Shown piece by piece: positions 1 through 10,209 of a stretch of DNA of 39,688 nucleotides. The DNA is from a virus: the IMG/VR virus record IMGVR_UViG_3300024517_000041, positions 1 through 39,688 of that record; one strand, given 5' to 3'. Position 1 is the first letter of the stretch; every line of letters starts with the position of its first letter. A program made the translations under genes and the position numbers. A model generated the notes under the pieces. It was not told the origin of the DNA, made no database searches, and was given only the letters and a program-made list of their open reading frames with translations.

Positions 1-406
1 GGTTTCCATCCATTTCGAATTTTCCGGAGACAAGATCTCCCGCGTACAGGTAGCGCCCGATGCCGTAATGGACAGCCGCCCTCTTGTATGCATCGGAGTA
101 CATCCCTTTGATGCCTTCGATGTTGGATGGGATACCCACATCAACCTTGGTCACCCACCCATCGTTGAACCGTACACTGAGAGCGCATGAGCATCGGTCA
201 CCGCTATCGTTGAACTTGACTTCCCAGTTGTCGGGTCCGATGACATCGTCGAGTCGATCATCCACATTCCTGGCATCGATGTAGACCAGAGGTGAAGATT
301 TTTTCCCACTGAAATCTGCGGGTCGCCATTTTATTTCCTGGGGAGGGAAGGGGGCTCTGAGAGCTTCCATCTTGAGACAGGTGTCTGCTTCTTTATCTTC
401 CATCAT
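1..406 (-). CDS. Rad52/Rad22-family single-strand annealing protein, 3' end cut by window edge
   Basis: The reverse strand from 406 to the window edge encodes about 135 residues with no stop. It shows the Rad52/Rad22 (DdrA/Sak-type) signatures: LRAPFPPQEIKWRP near the N terminus, VYIDARNVDDRLDDVIGP followed by NWEVKF, and SDAYKRAAVHYGIGRYLY. The family binds single-stranded DNA as rings and anneals homologous strands in phage recombination. The start is the first of two adjacent ATGs (406 or 403); it overlaps the end of the upstream nuclease gene by 14 bases, so the two are probably translationally coupled. The C-terminal end lies beyond base 1. The family call is firm from these motifs; the role in this phage is inferred. 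Confidence 0.88.
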   Translation of the reverse strand, partial: MMEDKEADTCLKMEALRAPFPPQEIKWRPADFSGKKSSPLVYIDARNVDDRLDDVIGPDNWEVKFNDSGDRCSCALSVRFNDGWVTKVDVGIPSNIEGIKGMYSDAYKRAAVHYGIGRYLYAGDLVSGKFEMDGN

Positions 407-1301
407 TGGTTTGTTTCCAATCTTGCCATTGATCACAGATAGATTCGAAGTGGCAATAGCTCTTGCACCTTCGATAGGTTTTGAAGGATGAGGTGATGAC
501 TGCATCTAGCTGCACACCTTGAGGCAAGCTGGCTAGAGCTTTGGCTGCATCCATTTTCCTGGGGAAGGTTTCATCCCCTCTGAATATAATGGGATCCGTT
601 TCAGAGATGGATTCGATTTTCCAAACCTTACCTGTCGGCCATCGTCCTTCATGCGAACAGAATGGAAGATTCTTCTGTGCTTCTCTGTGGAGTTCGATCT
701 TCTCTCTCACAAAGTCTTCAGTTTTCTGATGATCCCATAGTGGGAGATCGATGGTGAGTCCAGGGGTTTGAGGATAGGTACTCACCTCTTCGGCTCTACC
801 TATGCGCCAGTCTCGAAGGAAGGCATATATTTCAAGGCCATCTACGGTTAGTCCAGGCTTCTCTCTTTCGATCAGCCATGCATAGATATTCAGTTGCTGT
901 TCCCACTTCAGCGTATCTCTGATTCCGTAAAGAGTGGTGAATTTATAATCACCGATCCGCACACGTTTCGAGAAGTCTTTATCGATCTCTACGATCTGAA
1001 GGTCCATCGCACCGCTGATGGTTACACCTTCGAACTCTGTAAAGATTCTTTCTTCTGCAATCTCATCATTGCCTGCATGAGTTGACATCAGGTGATGAAA
1101 GATATTGGAGAGAAACTTCCAAGGATTTTCGTATGGATCATCCTTGATGAGATCGTTTCGCGTAGCCTCAAGAGCTACGATTCTTGGTTCTTCCAGTAGT
1201 CCTGTCGCAGAAAAATCTGCACGCCCTTTGGAATACTGATCGTCTTCCGCGTATCGTATCAACGCACGCGGAGCGCGATGTTGGTTAAGGATATCCCCCA
1301 T
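393..1301 (-). CDS. PD-(D/E)XK nuclease with Fe-S type cysteines (Cas4/AddB-like)
   Basis: A 302-residue protein of the RecB/Cas4-like nuclease superfamily. The active-site pattern is visible: H70, D100 in SGAMD, D118-x-K120 in IGDYKF, and Q135-Q136 with Y140 in WEQQLNIY. Cysteines at 215 (FCSHEGRWP) and at 279, 283 and 289 (CKSYCHFESIC) match the one-plus-three arrangement of AddB/Cas4-type 4Fe-4S clusters. Such phage enzymes resect DNA ends and here precede the Rad52-like annealing gene, making a two-gene exonuclease/annealase pair like lambda exo/bet in logic. Transcribed leftward from a promoter at 1322-1349; the Shine-Dalgarno sequence is TTAGGAGG. It is not linked to any CRISPR array in the window. 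Confidence 0.85.
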   Translation of the reverse strand: MGDILNQHRAPRALIRYAEDDQYSKGRADFSATGLLEEPRIVALEATRNDLIKDDPYENPWKFLSNIFHHLMSTHAGNDEIAEERIFTEFEGVTISGAMDLQIVEIDKDFSKRVRIGDYKFTTLYGIRDTLKWEQQLNIYAWLIEREKPGLTVDGLEIYAFLRDWRIGRAEEVSTYPQTPGLTIDLPLWDHQKTEDFVREKIELHREAQKNLPFCSHEGRWPTGKVWKIESISETDPIIFRGDETFPRKMDAAKALASLPQGVQLDAVITSSFKTYRRCKSYCHFESICDQWQDWKQTNDGR

Positions 1302-1321
1302 TTACCACCTCCTAACTTCGA

Positions 1322-1349
1322 ACTATAGCGAACTGACGTATGGCGTCAA
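1322..1349 (-). promoter_or_regulatory. Leftward sigma-70-like promoter with inverted repeat over the -35
   Basis: Read on the minus strand: TTGACG (1349-1344), 16 bases, TATAGT (1327-1322), then TTAGGAGG and the nuclease ATG at 1301. The inverted repeat TGACG-N5-CGTCA (1334-1348) covers the -35 box and could be an operator. Functional role inferred from sequence only. Confidence 0.65.
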
Positions 1350-1397
1350 TACGATTTAACGCTACAGTGGGGAGTAACCTGTGGGGGGTGAGAGTGA

Positions 1398-1835
1398 GTG
1401 GAATGGGAATGGGTTCAAGAGATTTCCGGAGAGCCAGCTTCGAAGGCAAATTCGAGGAGGTTGGTTCAGATCGGTGGCAAGCCCCGTTTCATCAAGAGCC
1501 AGAAGGCTCTCGCATACTCTCGGAGCTTCGCGGCTCAAGTGACTCCCCCTGCGGTTCCGTTGGAAGGCGACCTAGAGGTGGGGGTGGTGATATGGTACGC
1601 GAGTCGAAGGCCGGATCTGGATCCGAGCCTGATCTTCGATCTCCTTCAGGCGACCGGAGTCATAGTCAACGACAGGCAGATCAAGAAGATTTCTGCTTGG
1701 CATTCCTTGAACAAAGAAAATCCTCATACGATGATAGCTCTACGGTATCTGTCAGAAGACTCTGGGCTGCCGTTCTTTCGATGGCGTTCAGAGACTTCTC
1801 AAGAGGAAACCAGAAAGAGCGTCAGGGAGTCATGA
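1398..1835 (+). CDS. rusA: RusA-like Holliday junction resolvase
   Basis: A 145-residue protein matching the RusA endodeoxyribonuclease pattern: an N-terminal SKANSRRLV...KPRFIKS segment, then the aspartate-rich core RRPDLDPSLIFDLLQATGVIVNDRQI. The aspartates in this core are the metal ligands of the family. RusA cuts four-way junctions and branched DNA made by recombination or replication, in keeping with the neighbouring annealase and nuclease. The first start in this frame is GTG at 1398, just after an in-frame TGA; a purine-rich GGGGGGTGAGAG lies upstream. The C-terminal 30 residues extend past the usual core and are not recognised. It overlaps the next gene by ATGA. Confidence 0.8.
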   Translation: MEWEWVQEISGEPASKANSRRLVQIGGKPRFIKSQKALAYSRSFAAQVTPPAVPLEGDLEVGVVIWYASRRPDLDPSLIFDLLQATGVIVNDRQIKKISAWHSLNKENPHTMIALRYLSEDSGLPFFRWRSETSQEETRKSVRES

Positions 1836-1996
1836 GGTGGCTGGAGACAGAGCATTTCTCTGATGTGTGTGGCTGGGCAGGGGTTGAGGAACCGCTCGTT
1901 AGAGAGCGTTTCAAGTGGCTTTCTGAGGTACCGATAGATATGCGCCCGAAGGTCTTTCGAGAGATCTCTCTTCTCAGGCCAAGGGCTAGAAAATAA
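1832..1996 (+). CDS. Small conserved-type phage protein, function unknown
   Basis: A 54-residue ORF whose ATG overlaps the rusA stop codon (ATGA at 1832-1835), a common sign of translational coupling. The protein is mostly helical in prediction by eye and carries the pattern DVCGWAG...VRERFKWL, which resembles small phage proteins with a CxxAG-x-VR helix seen near recombination genes. I cannot assign a function. It lies inside a longer open frame that starts at 1340, but the upstream part of that frame is a shadow of rusA. A strong hairpin starts two bases after its stop codon. Confidence 0.6.
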   Translation: MRWLETEHFSDVCGWAGVEEPLVRERFKWLSEVPIDMRPKVFREISLLRPRARK

Positions 1997-1997
1997 A

Positions 1998-2029
1998 GAG
2001 CCGATCCCCCGTCGCAAGGGGACCGGCTC
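1998..2029. terminator. Strong hairpin, terminator-like on the minus strand
   Basis: GAGCCGATCCCC (1998-2009) pairs with GGGGACCGGCTC (2018-2029) with a single A-C mismatch and an 8-base loop. On the minus strand the stem is followed by TTTATTTTC, typical of an intrinsic terminator. On the plus strand there is no T run; instead AAGGAGG follows directly, so in rightward mRNA it may act as a stabilising hairpin. Confidence 0.55.
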
Positions 2030-2037
2030 AAGGAGGC

Positions 2038-2071
2038 GATCTCGGTGAGAGATCTATGCATGGCGATGCAT
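2038..2071 (+). other. Two adjacent small hairpins after an AAGGAGG sequence
   Basis: GATCTC-GGTGA-GAGATC (2038-2054) and ATGCAT-GGCG-ATGCAT (2056-2071) are perfect 6-base inverted repeats lying directly after AAGGAGG (2030-2036). The first loop contains a GTG codon spaced 8 bases from the Shine-Dalgarno sequence. Together with the hairpin at 1998-2029 this makes a three-hairpin array. Confidence 0.45.
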
Positions 2072-2119
2072 GTCATCATTGTAGGATTAAGTCGCTATCT
2101 GTCAATGACTGTCCTGTAG
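2045..2119 (+). CDS. Possible 24-residue leader peptide
   Basis: GTG at 2045 opens a 24-codon frame ending at TAG 2117-2119, with AAGGAGG eight bases upstream. The Shine-Dalgarno sequence is one of the best in the window, and the start sits in the loop of a small hairpin. The product has no recognisable motif. It could be a leader peptide, or the Shine-Dalgarno sequence could simply be part of a structured RNA. There is no coding support beyond the start signal. Confidence 0.25.
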   Translation: MRDLCMAMHVIIVGLSRYLSMTVL

Positions 2120-2155
2120 GTAAATCCACACTGGATAAAAAAGAGGGAGTCGAAG

Positions 2156-2246
2156 CCTATAGAGCATATAGGACATAAGTTCTTATCAGAATAGGTACCC
2201 AATGATAGGTACCTAACTGTAGGTACCTACCTATAGGTACCTATAG
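2156..2246. repeat. Cluster of TAGGTACCTA palindromes (operator or origin-like array)
   Basis: The array contains CCTATA-N5-TATAGG (2156-2172), an incomplete TAGGTACC (2192-2199), and full TAGGTACCTA palindromes at 2206-2215, 2220-2229 and 2234-2243. The last extends to a perfect 16-base palindrome CTATAGGTACCTATAG (2231-2246). They lie directly upstream of the primase-helicase Shine-Dalgarno sequence. The same palindrome recurs at 14378-14397 and 14487-14500. A repressor operator is the simplest reading; replication iterons are an alternative because the array abuts a primase-helicase gene. Confidence 0.7.
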
Positions 2247-2264
2247 ATAGAGAAGGAGATGTAG

Positions 2265-4007
2265 GTGAGATCTATTGAAGCCATGGCGAAGTCAGAATTT
2301 GCAGGGGTCGGAACCAAGAATTTTATCTGTCCGGAATGTTCTGAGGATAGAAGTTTCAAGAATCAGGGGAAGAAATGTCTGACCATCACCTACAAGGATA
2401 AGGAGGCTGTCTGGTTTTGCCATAATTGCGAGACCAAAGGACATGTTTGGATGGATGAGAAGACAGAACTTCGCGTAGTCCCTCAGTTTTTCAATGCGAG
2501 TCCGGATTCTCTGAAGGTCATCGGCAAGGATCGTGGGATCAATTTCGATGAGATCGATGAGGAAACGAAGAGCCTGCTCTATGTGTCTGAGGATGTTTAC
2601 TTCAGCCAGATTGGCCAGAAGACTAGGGCCGTAGGCTTCGGGTATCCCCATGACGATGGGATCAAATGGAGAGGGCTGGAGGAGAAATGCTACACCCAGT
2701 CTGGATCATGCCGTGGTCTTTTCCCACCATTCAAATTCGATAGAGATGAGATCGTGTTCATTGTCGAAGGAGAATACGATGCCCTTGCCATGAGGTCTTG
2801 TGGCTATTTGGCATTTTCTGTTCCGCTCGGAGCGAATCTCTCAGCTAAGGGAGAAGCCCCACACTATTTGAAGCCGGTGATCAATGCCCTCTTGAGAGAT
2901 GAGATCGATGTGGTAGTGGCTGTTGATTCGGATGAGAAGGGCCAGAGATTCAGGGATGCATTGCTCAGTTTCCTGGGTCGTAATCGAATCGGGGTTATCG
3001 ATTGGTCTCAGTATGGTGTGAAGGATGCTAACGAGTGTCTTCAGGTCCATGGTCCGGAAGGCTTGAGGAAAGCGTTCTCTGAAATCCAGGGGATTCTCTA
3101 TGAGGGAATCGTTCGGGCTAGGAGTGTGGCAACCCGCATCGATGACATCAGGACAGGAGGTTTCAAAGGAGGAGCCAAGATCGGGATTCCCAGTGTGGAC
3201 AGGTTGATCACAGTTTGTAGTGATCAGGTCACAGTGGTGACGGGGATCCCTGGCTCTGGCAAATCTGAGTTGATTGATTTCTTTATCGTGTCTCTGGCTA
3301 TCAACGAGGGATGGAAGTTCGGGATCTTCTCAGCAGAGAACCCAATTGATATCCATTGCGGGAAGCTGATCGAAAAGAAAGCTGGCCTACCTCTCTTCGA
3401 AGGTAACAATCGAATGAACGAGGAACAGTTGCGAGAAACTTCGGCATGGGTTGATGAGCATTTCTTTTTCCTGGACCCGGCATCGTCCAACAAACTGGAT
3501 TCAATTCTGGATAGGGCTGCGATACTCGTTGAGCATGAAAAGATTAACGGCATCGTGATCGATCCATTTAACTACACCGATGTACCTCTCGAAACCGATG
3601 CAATAAATTCGATGCTTACAAAACTCCATGCCTTCGCGGGCAAGCATCATATCCATGTCTGGATCGTCGCTCATCCTGCCAAGCTTTACCGAGGTGAAGG
3701 TGGGAAGATGCCTGTCCCTGGCGGAATGGATATCAGTGGGTCAGCAGCTTGGTTCGCGAAGTCTGACTTCGGAATTACTGTGTCGAGGGACGGTGATGGG
3801 ACCATCATGAATTGCTGGAAGTGTCGATTCAAATGGCTCGGCGACACAGGTACAGCGCATCTTCGTTACCACAGTGACTGCGGACGCTACTCCGAGGGAG
3901 TCTCAACTGAAGAGATAGCAAAGTCTCTGGGAGAGATATTCAAAGACGAACCGGTAGCTGCTGATGAGTCGAAGGAAGATTTCCAAGATGAACTCTGGGT
4001 CGTCTGA
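2265..4007 (+). CDS. Primase-helicase (T7 gp4 / Twinkle-like)
   Basis: A 580-residue replicative primase-helicase. The N-terminal zinc finger has C22-x2-C25 and C52-x2-C55. The TOPRIM domain shows E168 in FIVEGEYDA and D221-x-D223 in VAVDSDEKG. The C-terminal RecA/DnaB-type helicase has Walker A GIPGSGKS (327-334), the glutamate motif GIFSAENP (E358) and Walker B GIVIDPFN (D433). All key residues are present, so both activities are expected: unwinding at the phage fork and primer synthesis. The GTG start at 2265 is chosen because GAAGGAG sits about 6 bases before it; an ATG at 2283 lacks such a site. It lies just after the palindrome array that probably controls it. No phage DNA polymerase is seen in the window. 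Confidence 0.93.
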   Translation: MRSIEAMAKSEFAGVGTKNFICPECSEDRSFKNQGKKCLTITYKDKEAVWFCHNCETKGHVWMDEKTELRVVPQFFNASPDSLKVIGKDRGINFDEIDEETKSLLYVSEDVYFSQIGQKTRAVGFGYPHDDGIKWRGLEEKCYTQSGSCRGLFPPFKFDRDEIVFIVEGEYDALAMRSCGYLAFSVPLGANLSAKGEAPHYLKPVINALLRDEIDVVVAVDSDEKGQRFRDALLSFLGRNRIGVIDWSQYGVKDANECLQVHGPEGLRKAFSEIQGILYEGIVRARSVATRIDDIRTGGFKGGAKIGIPSVDRLITVCSDQVTVVTGIPGSGKSELIDFFIVSLAINEGWKFGIFSAENPIDIHCGKLIEKKAGLPLFEGNNRMNEEQLRETSAWVDEHFFFLDPASSNKLDSILDRAAILVEHEKINGIVIDPFNYTDVPLETDAINSMLTKLHAFAGKHHIHVWIVAHPAKLYRGEGGKMPVPGGMDISGSAAWFAKSDFGITVSRDGDGTIMNCWKCRFKWLGDTGTAHLRYHSDCGRYSEGVSTEEIAKSLGEIFKDEPVAADESKEDFQDELWVV

Positions 4008-4476
4008 TAATTCTCGGGGGATAGAATCCGGGACCGATGAACTGAAGAAAAAATTCAAGGTCGAGGTGGAGAAGCTAGACAGTCGGGGAATATTCCGGAG
4101 GTCCAGAGTTGTCAACCAGACCCGAATCGATTCGTTGTTTCTTGACAGAGCAATAGACATTGCACAGTTCTCAGCAGCAGAACTTTACCTGGAACTCTTA
4201 TGGAAGGCCGGTATCTTTTTGCGGAGCCCATCGATGGAGAGATCTTTCGAGGTGACAGGCAAGGAAGTTGAGAAGTCCATCTCGTCTAGGATCTTGGCGA
4301 TATCAGGAGCGAGGAGCAAGCTAAGGAAACTGGATCCGAAGGTGGCCTTGGCTGTTGATCTCTGCATTGGTTCGAATGCTCCAGTGGATATAGGGCTACT
4401 GCGTGAAGGGCTCGATGTTCTTGTGGATCACTTCGGAATTTCACGTATGGCTGACCCCAGAAAGAAAACCCGCTAG
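3988..4476 (+). CDS. Unknown protein downstream of primase-helicase
   Basis: A 162-residue protein overlapping the end of the primase-helicase gene by 20 bases. ATG 3988 is preferred because GAAGGAAG lies about 9 bases upstream; ATG 3964 would add 8 residues. The N terminus is polar and charged, the middle (FLDRAIDIAQFSAAELYLELLWKAGIF) is likely helical, and the C terminus is basic (RKKTR). No known domain was recognised. Position suggests a replication or packaging accessory role, but this is only inference. The leftward-block terminator overlaps its last codons. Confidence 0.65.
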   Translation: MNSGSSDNSRGIESGTDELKKKFKVEVEKLDSRGIFRRSRVVNQTRIDSLFLDRAIDIAQFSAAELYLELLWKAGIFLRSPSMERSFEVTGKEVEKSISSRILAISGARSKLRKLDPKVALAVDLCIGSNAPVDIGLLREGLDVLVDHFGISRMADPRKKTR

Positions 4477-4498
4477 CCACATCAGTGACTAACGGGTT
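4467..4498 (-). terminator. Terminator at the end of the leftward gene block
   Basis: AACCCGTTAG (4498-4489 on the minus strand) pairs with CTAGCGGGTT (4476-4467) with one mismatch and a 12-base loop, followed on the minus strand by TTTTCTTTCT. It ends leftward transcription and lies between two converging gene sets. In the rightward direction no T run follows. Confidence 0.75.
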
Positions 4499-4610
4499 GT
4501 ACCGCCTGGGATACTGCCATCACGATGACTGTCACCATGATGGCTCGTCCGAGTGGGGTTAGTATCTTCCTCTTGCACCTTGCTTTGACAAGGAAAACTT
4601 GAGGATGCAT
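4482..4610 (-). CDS. Possible 42-residue membrane microprotein
   Basis: ATG at 4610 opens a 42-codon frame ending at 4482, inside the loop of the terminator. The product has a basic N-terminal part (KARCKRK) followed by an uninterrupted hydrophobic stretch (AIMVTVIVMAVSQAV) that could form one membrane helix, N-terminus in. It starts three bases after the upstream ribbon-helix-helix gene stops. The Shine-Dalgarno sequence is weak (GTAGGGT). The position and the membrane-like segment make it plausible; it could also be a chance frame. Confidence 0.35.
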   Translation of the reverse strand: MHPQVFLVKARCKRKILTPLGRAIMVTVIVMAVSQAVQPVSH

Positions 4611-9061: not shown

Positions 9062-9090
9062 ATCTTACCCCATCCCGGGGGTGTTGTCAA
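9062..9090 (-). promoter_or_regulatory. Leftward promoter P2, within the end of the ATPase gene
   Basis: Minus strand: GGGTTGACA with the -35 box at 9090-9085, 17 bases, TAAGAT at 9067-9062, then AGGAG and ATG 9040. The -35 region overlaps the last codons of the MoxR-like gene, which ends at 9065. The flanking GGGTTGACAACACCC forms a short inverted repeat. Confidence 0.72.
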
Positions 9091-10177
9091 CCCTGAACAG
9101 ATTTGAGTTTTTCTCAATCCACTCGATGAACGGCATCGTCTTGTGTGCGGAGTTGGGATTGATCGTTCCGAAGTCGGTTCCAAATATTGCTCGGAAGCAA
9201 TCGTCTTTGAACCTATCCACGTAGATCAGGGCGTTTTTTATATCGTCCCTCCCCACGTTTTTCTGCAAGGCAGCAATCGTCGCAAACTTAACATCGACCC
9301 TGTCAGGAACCGGAACCCCCTCTGGATTCGCAAGGATCTCCGGAATCGCGGGGATCAGATCGAAGAGGGCCAGAAATCCAATCAACTGGGCTGCGTCGAT
9401 TTCTCCGATGGTTCCCTTCGCGGCTCTGAAGGCCCGTTGAGAATCCGAATCGTATCGGGGAGTCTGGTAGCTATCTTTCCCTCCAACATCTGCGGTTGCA
9501 GTGACTCGGTATTTATTTGCGACAAGGATATCGGAGAAGGCTGCAAGGGATCGAGGCGAGGATTGCGGGCCGTCGATCATACCATCCCATTCGGTGAGCA
9601 ATTCGGGAAGGTAGTTGGTTGCCGCTATGATTCTGTAGTCTACCCCGTGAGCGCGAGCCCATTCCTGCCAGTCCTTGGGATCGGTTTCGAAATCGACCTG
9701 CGTAAACCGATTGCCGAATGAGGAGGGCATTCTCTTGACCCCGCAGCCATCAGTTTTGCGATTGCCAGTCGCGACGATGTAAACATCGTGAGGCAATATG
9801 TAGTCTCCAAGCCTCCGCTCCTGGCAAAGTTGGAACAAAGCGTAATGGTGAGCCTGGGGAGCGTTTGGGATCTCTTCGATCAGCAAGATTCCCGGTCCAG
9901 TCTTAGGCAGGAACTCCGGCATCAGCCAAGTAGTAGTTTTGTTGGCCACATCGGGAAATGGATATCCCCTGTAGTCGATGGGGTCCATGTAACAGGGGCG
10001 CAGATCGGTGAGGGATAATTCTGAGACAGGTACTCTCAGGAATTCTGCCAATCCCTCCATGACCGGGCCAGCTACGGTTTCGCTCTTCCCGCCTCCGGGT
10101 GGCCCGATCACGAGCGCGTTATGACCACCTCGCAATGTGTCGAGGATCGTAGTGATGCTGTCCTTTGTTCTTCCCAT
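9065..10177 (-). CDS. MoxR/CobS-like AAA+ ATPase
   Basis: A 370-residue AAA+ ATPase. Walker A is GPPGGGKSE (25-33), Walker B is GILLIEEIPNA, and sensor 1 is VYIVATGNR followed by MPSSFGNRF with the arginine-finger position. The gapless start of the domain and helix arrangement match MoxR-type ATPases, a group that includes RavA and the cobaltochelatase subunit CobS. These enzymes remodel partner proteins together with VWA-domain adaptors. ATG 10177 is chosen since GGGAGG lies 8 bases upstream; the in-frame GTG at 10186 overlaps that site. It has its own promoter (P3). The CobS reading is less likely since no large chelatase subunit was seen. Confidence 0.88.
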   Translation of the reverse strand: MGRTKDSITTILDTLRGGHNALVIGPPGGGKSETVAGPVMEGLAEFLRVPVSELSLTDLRPCYMDPIDYRGYPFPDVANKTTTWLMPEFLPKTGPGILLIEEIPNAPQAHHYALFQLCQERRLGDYILPHDVYIVATGNRKTDGCGVKRMPSSFGNRFTQVDFETDPKDWQEWARAHGVDYRIIAATNYLPELLTEWDGMIDGPQSSPRSLAAFSDILVANKYRVTATADVGGKDSYQTPRYDSDSQRAFRAAKGTIGEIDAAQLIGFLALFDLIPAIPEILANPEGVPVPDRVDVKFATIAALQKNVGRDDIKNALIYVDRFKDDCFRAIFGTDFGTINPNSAHKTMPFIEWIEKNSNLFRVDNTPGMG

Positions 10178-10209
10178 CGAAATCACCTCCCAATGATTTG
10201 TTCAAATTG

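Follow-up and report, generated by a model that had tools for sequence, protein, structure and literature searches.

Three hairpins stand in a row between a small open reading frame and the primase-helicase gene of an uncultured phage, raising the question of which strand they belong to and what they encode. The window, meaning the whole stretch of 39,688 bases analysed here, is a virus record of the IMG/VR type. Its plus strand carries genes for terminase, portal and head, and the replication and recombination genes are grouped at its left end. Its terminase is less than 60% identical to that of every matching annotated phage record. A sequence-only reading had proposed that the array, taken on the plus strand with a GTG codon exposed in one loop, might be a leader peptide or a regulatory RNA ahead of the primase-helicase operon.

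Locus setting and coding strand

The genes around the hairpins are as follows.

393..1301, minus strand: PD-(D/E)XK exonuclease gene (phrog_2139 exonuclease, E 7.2e-29; PF12705 PDDEXK_1, E 4.5e-8)
1301-1299, minus strand: exonuclease start codon
1349-1322, minus strand: exonuclease promoter match from a promoter scan, TTGACG-16-TATAGT
1398-1835, plus strand: RusA gene
stop at 1996, plus strand: small orf2, then an untranslated stretch up to the helicase
2265-4007, plus strand: primase-helicase gene, start at 2265

The three hairpins occupy the first part of the untranslated stretch, which follows the orf2 stop (1996) and ends at the helicase start (2265). This locus is common to 18 other contigs of one uncultured phage clade (19 with the window), all with a primase-helicase at least 49% identical, and the exonuclease/RusA/helicase order is kept wherever a contig reaches. 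The relatives were grouped as L140; L136; clade B (L135, L137, L138, L139 and L168); clade C (L130 together with L131-L134); and clade A (L141-L146). Some of these contigs nearly duplicate one another: in a comparison of 580 bases, L138 matches L137 throughout, and the number of differences from L131 is one in L132 and two each in L133 and L134. The GC skew of the window tracks gene direction with no clear origin signal. Just 5' of the helicase start, at 2191-2246, are four 14-bp tandem copies of approximately ATAGGTACCTANNN with a GGTACC core, which look like an operator or iteron array; copies of AGGTACCT are found at the equivalent position in L086, which is the same contig as L140. Further on, a hairpin at 4467-4498, AACCCGTTAG...CTAGCGGGTT, separates two converging genes; it has a T-rich tail on its minus-strand side and is probably a terminator. 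The window contains no tRNA genes; one or two minus-strand tRNA genes lie about 3 kb past the helicase start in four of the five relatives searched (L130, L135, L136 and L141; none in L140).

The array itself is as the sequence-only reading described it, with a long stem at 1998-2029, a GATCTC/GAGATC stem at 2038-2054 and an ATGCAT/ATGCAT stem at 2056-2071 on the plus strand; AAGGAGG (2030-2036) is placed 8 nt 5' of the GTG, the second loop holds GGTGA, and the GTG opens a 24-aa frame that runs from 2045 to 2119. The structure also exceeds chance, on both strands: 1998-2119 folded as plus-strand RNA gives z = -3.25, with 2 of 200 shuffles equally good, and 1989-2071 folded as minus-strand RNA gives z = -5.27, with none of 200 equally good. 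The long stem is uninterrupted on the minus strand only, where it has 13 pairs, versus 11 pairs, one mismatch and a wider loop on the plus strand. When stems were extended equally through G-U and A-C in 12 representatives, the minus strand showed 22 G-U pairs versus 0 A-C; this total leaves out L137, L139 and L168 because they repeat L135, and every lineage except L130 contributed at least one wobble pair. A G-U pair on one strand corresponds to an A-C mismatch on the other, so the wobbles fix the strand as minus. Folding energy is likewise lower on the minus strand in 14 of 15 segments, the exception being L130, and with a difference of only 0.1 kcal/mol in L146. Plus-strand terminator-like hairpins were flagged in L002, L070, L088, L090 and L092, and because some clade B and C hairpins resemble plus-strand terminators, the plus strand may use the hairpins too.

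The idea of a plus-strand leader for the primase-helicase operon, be it peptide or RNA, would draw on the AAGGAGG and GTG 8 nt apart, on a plus-strand fold that beats shuffles and on these terminator-like hairpins. The polarity of the wobbles, the position of both promoter and U-tailed terminator on the minus strand and the lack of any plus-strand promoter match of at least 9/12 in window positions 1800-2290 argue against it, and make it extremely improbable. A start codon 3-12 nt past the equivalent GGAGG is found at just 3 of the 15 contig sites (GTG in the window, TTG in L144 and L146; an ATG abutting GGAGG directly in L136 and L146 was excluded from the count), and the resulting peptides of 24, 31 and 12 aa are unrelated, so that the leader peptide was rejected. 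The other half of the original proposal, a regulatory RNA, gains support from the minus-strand promoter and U-tailed terminator.

A predicted small RNA gene and its conservation

The signals on the minus strand are listed below.

1988..2071, minus strand: predicted small RNA gene of about 75-84 nt (promoter, hairpins and terminator combined; ends predicted)
2078..2105, minus strand: predicted sigma70-type promoter (-35 TTGACA at 2105-2100, 16 nt, -10 TACAAT at 2083-2078; 11/12 consensus)
2056..2071, minus strand: hairpin 1, AUGCAU-CGCC-AUGCAU (minus-strand fold; MFE and centroid agree)
2038..2054, minus strand: hairpin 2, GAUCUC-UCACC-GAGAUC (fold)
2030..2037, minus strand: linker GCCUCCUU, anti-Shine-Dalgarno element, unpaired in the fold
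2031-2040, minus strand: predicted seed for the exonuclease mRNA, AUCGCCUCCU (linker and last three bases of hairpin 2)
1998..2029, minus strand: hairpin 3, Rho-independent terminator stem GAGCCGGUCCCCU...GGGGGAUCGGCUC (terminator scan and fold)
1997-1988, minus strand: U tract UUUAUUUUCU 3' of hairpin 3

The RNA start near 2071 is predicted from promoter spacing, and the terminator ends 73 nt past it. A scan of both strands of the whole window under stricter rules found 6 terminator places and 8 promoters that match the consensus at 10 or more of 12 positions; of these 8, only the small RNA promoter has a terminator no more than 300 nt away. As is usual for bacterial-type small RNA genes, a sigma70-like promoter is found 5' of the hairpins both in the window (11/12) and in all six clade A members (TTGACT-17-GATAAT, 6/6), and a GC-rich hairpin followed by a U tract ends the segment in the window and L140. 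Based on these signals, the segment is very likely a minus-strand small RNA gene. Its linker GCCUCCUU is the complement of the AAGGAGG that had been taken for a ribosome-binding site. The tail of 16S rRNA reads GAUCACCUCCUU; the window's GAUCGCCUCCUU resembles it, and as this likeness is not common to the relatives, no claim of rRNA mimicry is made.

Hairpins between orf2 and the helicase were found in the 16 of 19 contigs that were folded (omitting L132, L134 and L138) and in a 15-segment fold set (omitting L132, L133, L134 and L138). In 15 of 19 contigs, the hairpin preceding the last stem has a CCUCC beside or within it. This motif is absent from the near-identical L131-L134; it is located in the linker in the window and L140, and in one loop in clades A and B and in L136. 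In L140 the layout is that of the window but the stems differ in sequence; it comprises an extended -10 TGTGATAAT, hairpins, TTCCTCCT and a terminator with six T. In clade A, hairpin 1 is variable, hairpin 2 carries CCUCC in or at its loop, and hairpin 3 has 14 pairs and the loop UUAUCCCUUUC. Besides CCUCC, clades A and B have a second exposed C/U-rich loop, UAUCCCUUU. No U tract follows the full hairpin 3 in clades A, B and C; a weaker inner terminator-like hairpin with TTTCGTT was flagged in four of the six clade A loci.

The sequence-only reading had named a lack of covariation, together with the lack of a transcript starting or ending in the segment, as what would refute it; covariation is present in clade A, where 98.9% of 186 pair cells are standard. 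Double changes affect 9 cells in four pairs, a number reached by 0 of 500 shuffles, and the covariation score is 0.200 versus 0.131 +/- 0.018 in shuffles (0/500 as high), the changes falling in hairpins 1 and 3. The count of pairs changed on both sides is weaker, being matched by 29 of 500 shuffles, and further pair types fall below the shuffles (450/500 at least as high). With six related sequences, this constitutes moderate evidence. Covariation is claimed for clade A alone and no covariance model was built, because the window and L140 fell out of register when 13 core segments were aligned together, and clade B was, by eye, off by one base in an alignment of nine; L095 was excluded from alignment A2 owing to a stop codon in frame.

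Other features were observed near the small RNA gene of the relatives. In all six clade A members (L141-L146), GGGATAA of the -10 region is complementary to UUAUCCC of the hairpin-3 loop. A second leftward TTGACA lies on the minus strand, no more than 110 nt from the helicase start, in 16 of the 18 relatives (L130-L139, L141, L143-L146 and L168; absent from L140, L142 and the window), often 18 nt before TATAGA/TATATA, and in some clade A members the interval from it to the small RNA promoter contains a long GAGCATATG...CATATGCTC stem; the two together are possibly a second RNA.

Searches beyond the clade returned little. No Rfam family reached its gathering threshold in the window; weak minus-strand small RNA matches (anti-hemB, E 1.8; BcKCsr2, E 2.3) were far below cut-off, and a mir-1277 match (E 0.0026) on the palindromic repeats at 2178-2254 was not believable. 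An exact-pattern scan of viral contigs for GAGATCGCCTCCTTGAGCC gave one chance match, coding-like and on a contig without neighbouring genes, and a nucleotide search of annotated phages with window positions 1300-4500 gave no match. Among 62 distant phage loci scanned over the 500 nt upstream of the helicase, L207 alone has CCTCC just before a stem on the minus strand, and none has it on the plus strand; the descriptor used missed two of seven positive controls (L141 and L144). Only 2 distant relatives were found among genome contigs. Searches of the open-licence literature turned up no report of this small RNA, nor of a phage small RNA acting on an exonuclease start; the available text of two pelagiphage papers has nothing on such an RNA (PMC11066056, PMC12753301), and that of the latter lacks the words 'noncoding', 'sRNA' and 'antisense'.

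The exonuclease ribosome-binding site as a candidate target

The predicted target in the window is the following.

1304..1313, minus strand: AGGAGGUGGU, in the exonuclease Shine-Dalgarno region (pairs with the linker region over 10 uninterrupted bases, two of these pairs being G-U)

Here the exonuclease AGGAGGUGGU matches the small RNA AUCGCCUCCU. The corresponding pairings are exonuclease GAGGAAGGCA with small RNA UGCCUUCCUC in L140, exonuclease GAAAGGGAUAA with the hairpin-3 loop UUAUCCCUUUU in clade B, and exonuclease GGAAAGGGA with UCCCUUUCC in L130; in four of six clade A members, exonuclease CGAAAGGGG or AACGAAAGGGG pairs with the loop, and in L136 the match spans 6 bases only. The exposed bases are complementary to the exonuclease ribosome-binding site and change with it, with a weak match in L136, L141 and L143. 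Against a null of 2000 44-mers drawn at random from the same locus, p for the exonuclease start is 0.0045 in the window, 0.0065 in L140, 0.013 in clade B, 0.016 and 0.0125 in clade C, 0.041 in clade A (geometric mean of 6) and 0.28 in L136, or 6.9e-7 combined if the lineages are taken as independent. Combined values for the other genes are 0.47 for rusA, 0.58 for orf2 (3 lineages only), 0.014 for the helicase, 0.70 for p170 and 0.0099 for the rad52-like gene.

Because any Shine-Dalgarno sequence gains under the 44-mer null, a permutation across matched lineages is the better test, and the only one of the two in which Shine-Dalgarno content is controlled. Each RNA was scored against the exonuclease starts of all lineages, using 7 representatives and each of six clade A choices. 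The true assignment scores 157.8 versus a permuted mean of 124.1, with 3 of 5040 permutations equally good; over all six clade A representatives the number ranges from 3 to 27 of 5040, with any one lineage omitted it is 1 to 3 of 720, and without the window and L140 it is 3 of 120. The same test gives 843/5040 for rusA, 141/5040 for the helicase, 709/720 for p170 and 270/720 for the rad52-like gene, orf2 having too few lineages; among these four other testable genes, the helicase alone comes near the exonuclease result. The clade A helicase (L141-L146) has no evident Shine-Dalgarno (e.g. GGTAAGAATTGCAAAATGG), unlike that of the window. Scored with its own exonuclease start, the window RNA reaches 22.6, and it does not exceed 13.8 with any of the six others; the L140 RNA reaches 26.0 with its own and no more than 16.8 with the others; several loop-type RNAs (L130, L131 and clade A) score better with the clade B exonuclease start than with their own. 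As the match was noticed while gene starts were being compared and the tests were made afterwards, the permutation result is good support, not proof. The exposed segments were picked by the analyst from the folds; under an automatic unpaired-base mask, the best site in L140 is another 8-base match, since in the shorter segment the linker is part-paired with the 5' end.

Ranking within each locus gives a mixed picture. Of 12 loci ranked by helix score, 9 have the exonuclease first or second among their gene starts (window 2/48) and 3 have it fifth to seventh (including L141, 6/19, and L143, 7/24); by duplex energy it is first to third in 7 of 12 (L141 17/19, L143 15/24, L136 13/14). The window duplex energies are -23.5 kcal/mol for the start of an ATPase-like gene (phrog_1297, 9065-10186), which pairs best with the linker of all 48 gene starts, -19.5 for a start in the lysozyme frame and -18.6 for the exonuclease (3/48). 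Co-folding with the exonuclease target gives a ddG of -12.5 in the window (13 of 200 shuffled targets equally good) and -14.2 in L140 (4/200); seven loop-type RNAs co-fold at 0 to -3.5 only, because loop-loop pairing lies outside that model. Together, these data suggest that the small RNA probably acts by anti-Shine-Dalgarno pairing, with the chances evenly balanced that the exonuclease is its main conserved target.

Competing explanations, known systems and biological meaning

The explanation to which we give a modest preference is a phage-encoded anti-Shine-Dalgarno small RNA that acts in trans to repress translation of the exonuclease. Its computed basis consists of the promoter and terminator signals, the structure and its minus-strand polarity, the conservation of the locus, the covariation seen in clade A alone, and a complementarity to the exonuclease start that follows the lineages; transcription, the RNA ends, mRNA binding, the repressive direction and its timing we infer. 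Host RNA polymerase would start near 2071 on the minus strand and stop at the terminator at 2029-1998, yielding an RNA of about 80 nt (with its own terminator in the window and L140) that may fold into two 5' hairpins and a terminator hairpin, with GCCUCCUU left exposed between them. This exposed stretch would pair in trans with the ribosome-binding site of the exonuclease mRNA, and this pairing would block ribosome initiation and lower exonuclease levels. As an mRNA from the exonuclease promoter match at 1349-1322 would start at about 1315, such pairing would cover nearly the whole short leader. Other genes with a strong Shine-Dalgarno may be targets too, above all the ATPase-like gene.

The same pairing chemistry could serve a general anti-Shine-Dalgarno RNA with many phage or host targets, the exonuclease fit being a by-product of its strong Shine-Dalgarno. 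The retention of CCUCC in 15/19 contigs, the additional UAUCCCUUU loop exposed in clades A and B and the better pairing of the window's ATPase-like start than of its exonuclease start all point that way, as does the ability of alpha-r14 RNAs, according to the available text, to hit several mRNAs through redundant motifs (PMC10746234). We nevertheless consider it unlikely, as the true exonuclease start beats both the permuted starts (3-27/5040) and the four other testable shared genes. That lineage-matched fit is also left unexplained, as are the conserved unpaired CCUCC and UAUCCCUUU, by a device working at the level of transcription with no target in trans, through interference with the plus-strand rusA-helicase transcript or in an OOP-like role beside a replication gene. 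Such a device would suit the position of the RNA within a run of plus-strand genes, where it faces the untranslated stretch that precedes the primase-helicase, and has a precedent in lambda OOP RNA, whose promoter affects replication control in the account available to us (PMC12197685); on balance it is improbable. Finally, the hairpin at 2029-1998 with its U tract makes a good terminator and might do nothing else than close minus- or plus-strand transcription, its neighbours being there by chance. A promoter just upstream, a multi-hairpin layout and exposed motif kept in relatives, and covariation in hairpins 1 and 3 of clade A render this quite improbable.

The favoured trans-acting RNA shares features with several described systems. 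Lambda OOP RNA is short and located next to replication genes, as is the predicted RNA. OOP is a phage RNA with its own promoter that regulates a phage gene (PMC12197685), and the predicted RNA would do likewise. OOP is antisense to cII, whereas the predicted partner of the RNA described here is a gene 0.7 kb distant, paired over about 10 bases, and no cis-antisense arrangement was found, 1998-2071 lying between orf2 and the helicase. PreS and VpdS are likewise phage-encoded, trans-acting and short; in the available text, PreS targets the host dnaN, and VpdS, working via Hfq, affects small RNAs of the host as well as mRNA levels of both phage and host, unlike the RNA proposed here, whose best-supported target is the phage's own gene, through a direct fit to the ribosome-binding site (PMC12197685). 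The alpha-r14/NfeR1/'cuckoo' RNAs of Rhizobiales have, in the sections available, three hairpins, unpaired C/U-rich anti-Shine-Dalgarno motifs and diverging stems, and silence mRNAs by covering the ribosome-binding site (PMC10746234, PMC3927594). The predicted RNA resembles them in its three hairpins, exposed C/U-rich anti-Shine-Dalgarno bases and predicted cover of a ribosome-binding site; as described there, alpha-r14 RNAs come from bacterial genomes and carry CCUCCUCCC in each hairpin, whereas here there is one CCUCC and the gene belongs to a phage. No CCUCCUCCC was found in the unpaired part of several hairpins, the window having one GCCUCCUU linker and clades A and B one CCUCC per RNA, and because this repeated motif is missing, the small RNA is not filed under the alpha-r14/NfeR1 type.

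Many phage-derived small RNAs lack a described function according to the available part of a recent review, with 38 in its supplementary table (PMC12197685). The locus described here illustrates how a gene can be missed when the hairpins of only the opposite strand are considered. In L002, the exonuclease adjoins a Rad52-type annealing protein (PF04098), so that the RNA would turn down a phage recombination module. Tentatively, and with somewhat less confidence than in repression itself, the RNA may be a fast-evolving self-directed riboregulator, in which the stems drift while the exposed bases coevolve with the exonuclease start and the pairing survives. If so, it would constitute a dedicated RNA brake on phage recombination, with a seed that switches between an anti-Shine-Dalgarno linker (window and L140) and a hairpin loop (clades A, B and C). 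A seed that tracks the ribosome-binding site of the phage's own nuclease would mean RNA-level tuning of recombination by a phage clade, and such a clade would offer a natural set of coevolving RNA-target pairs.
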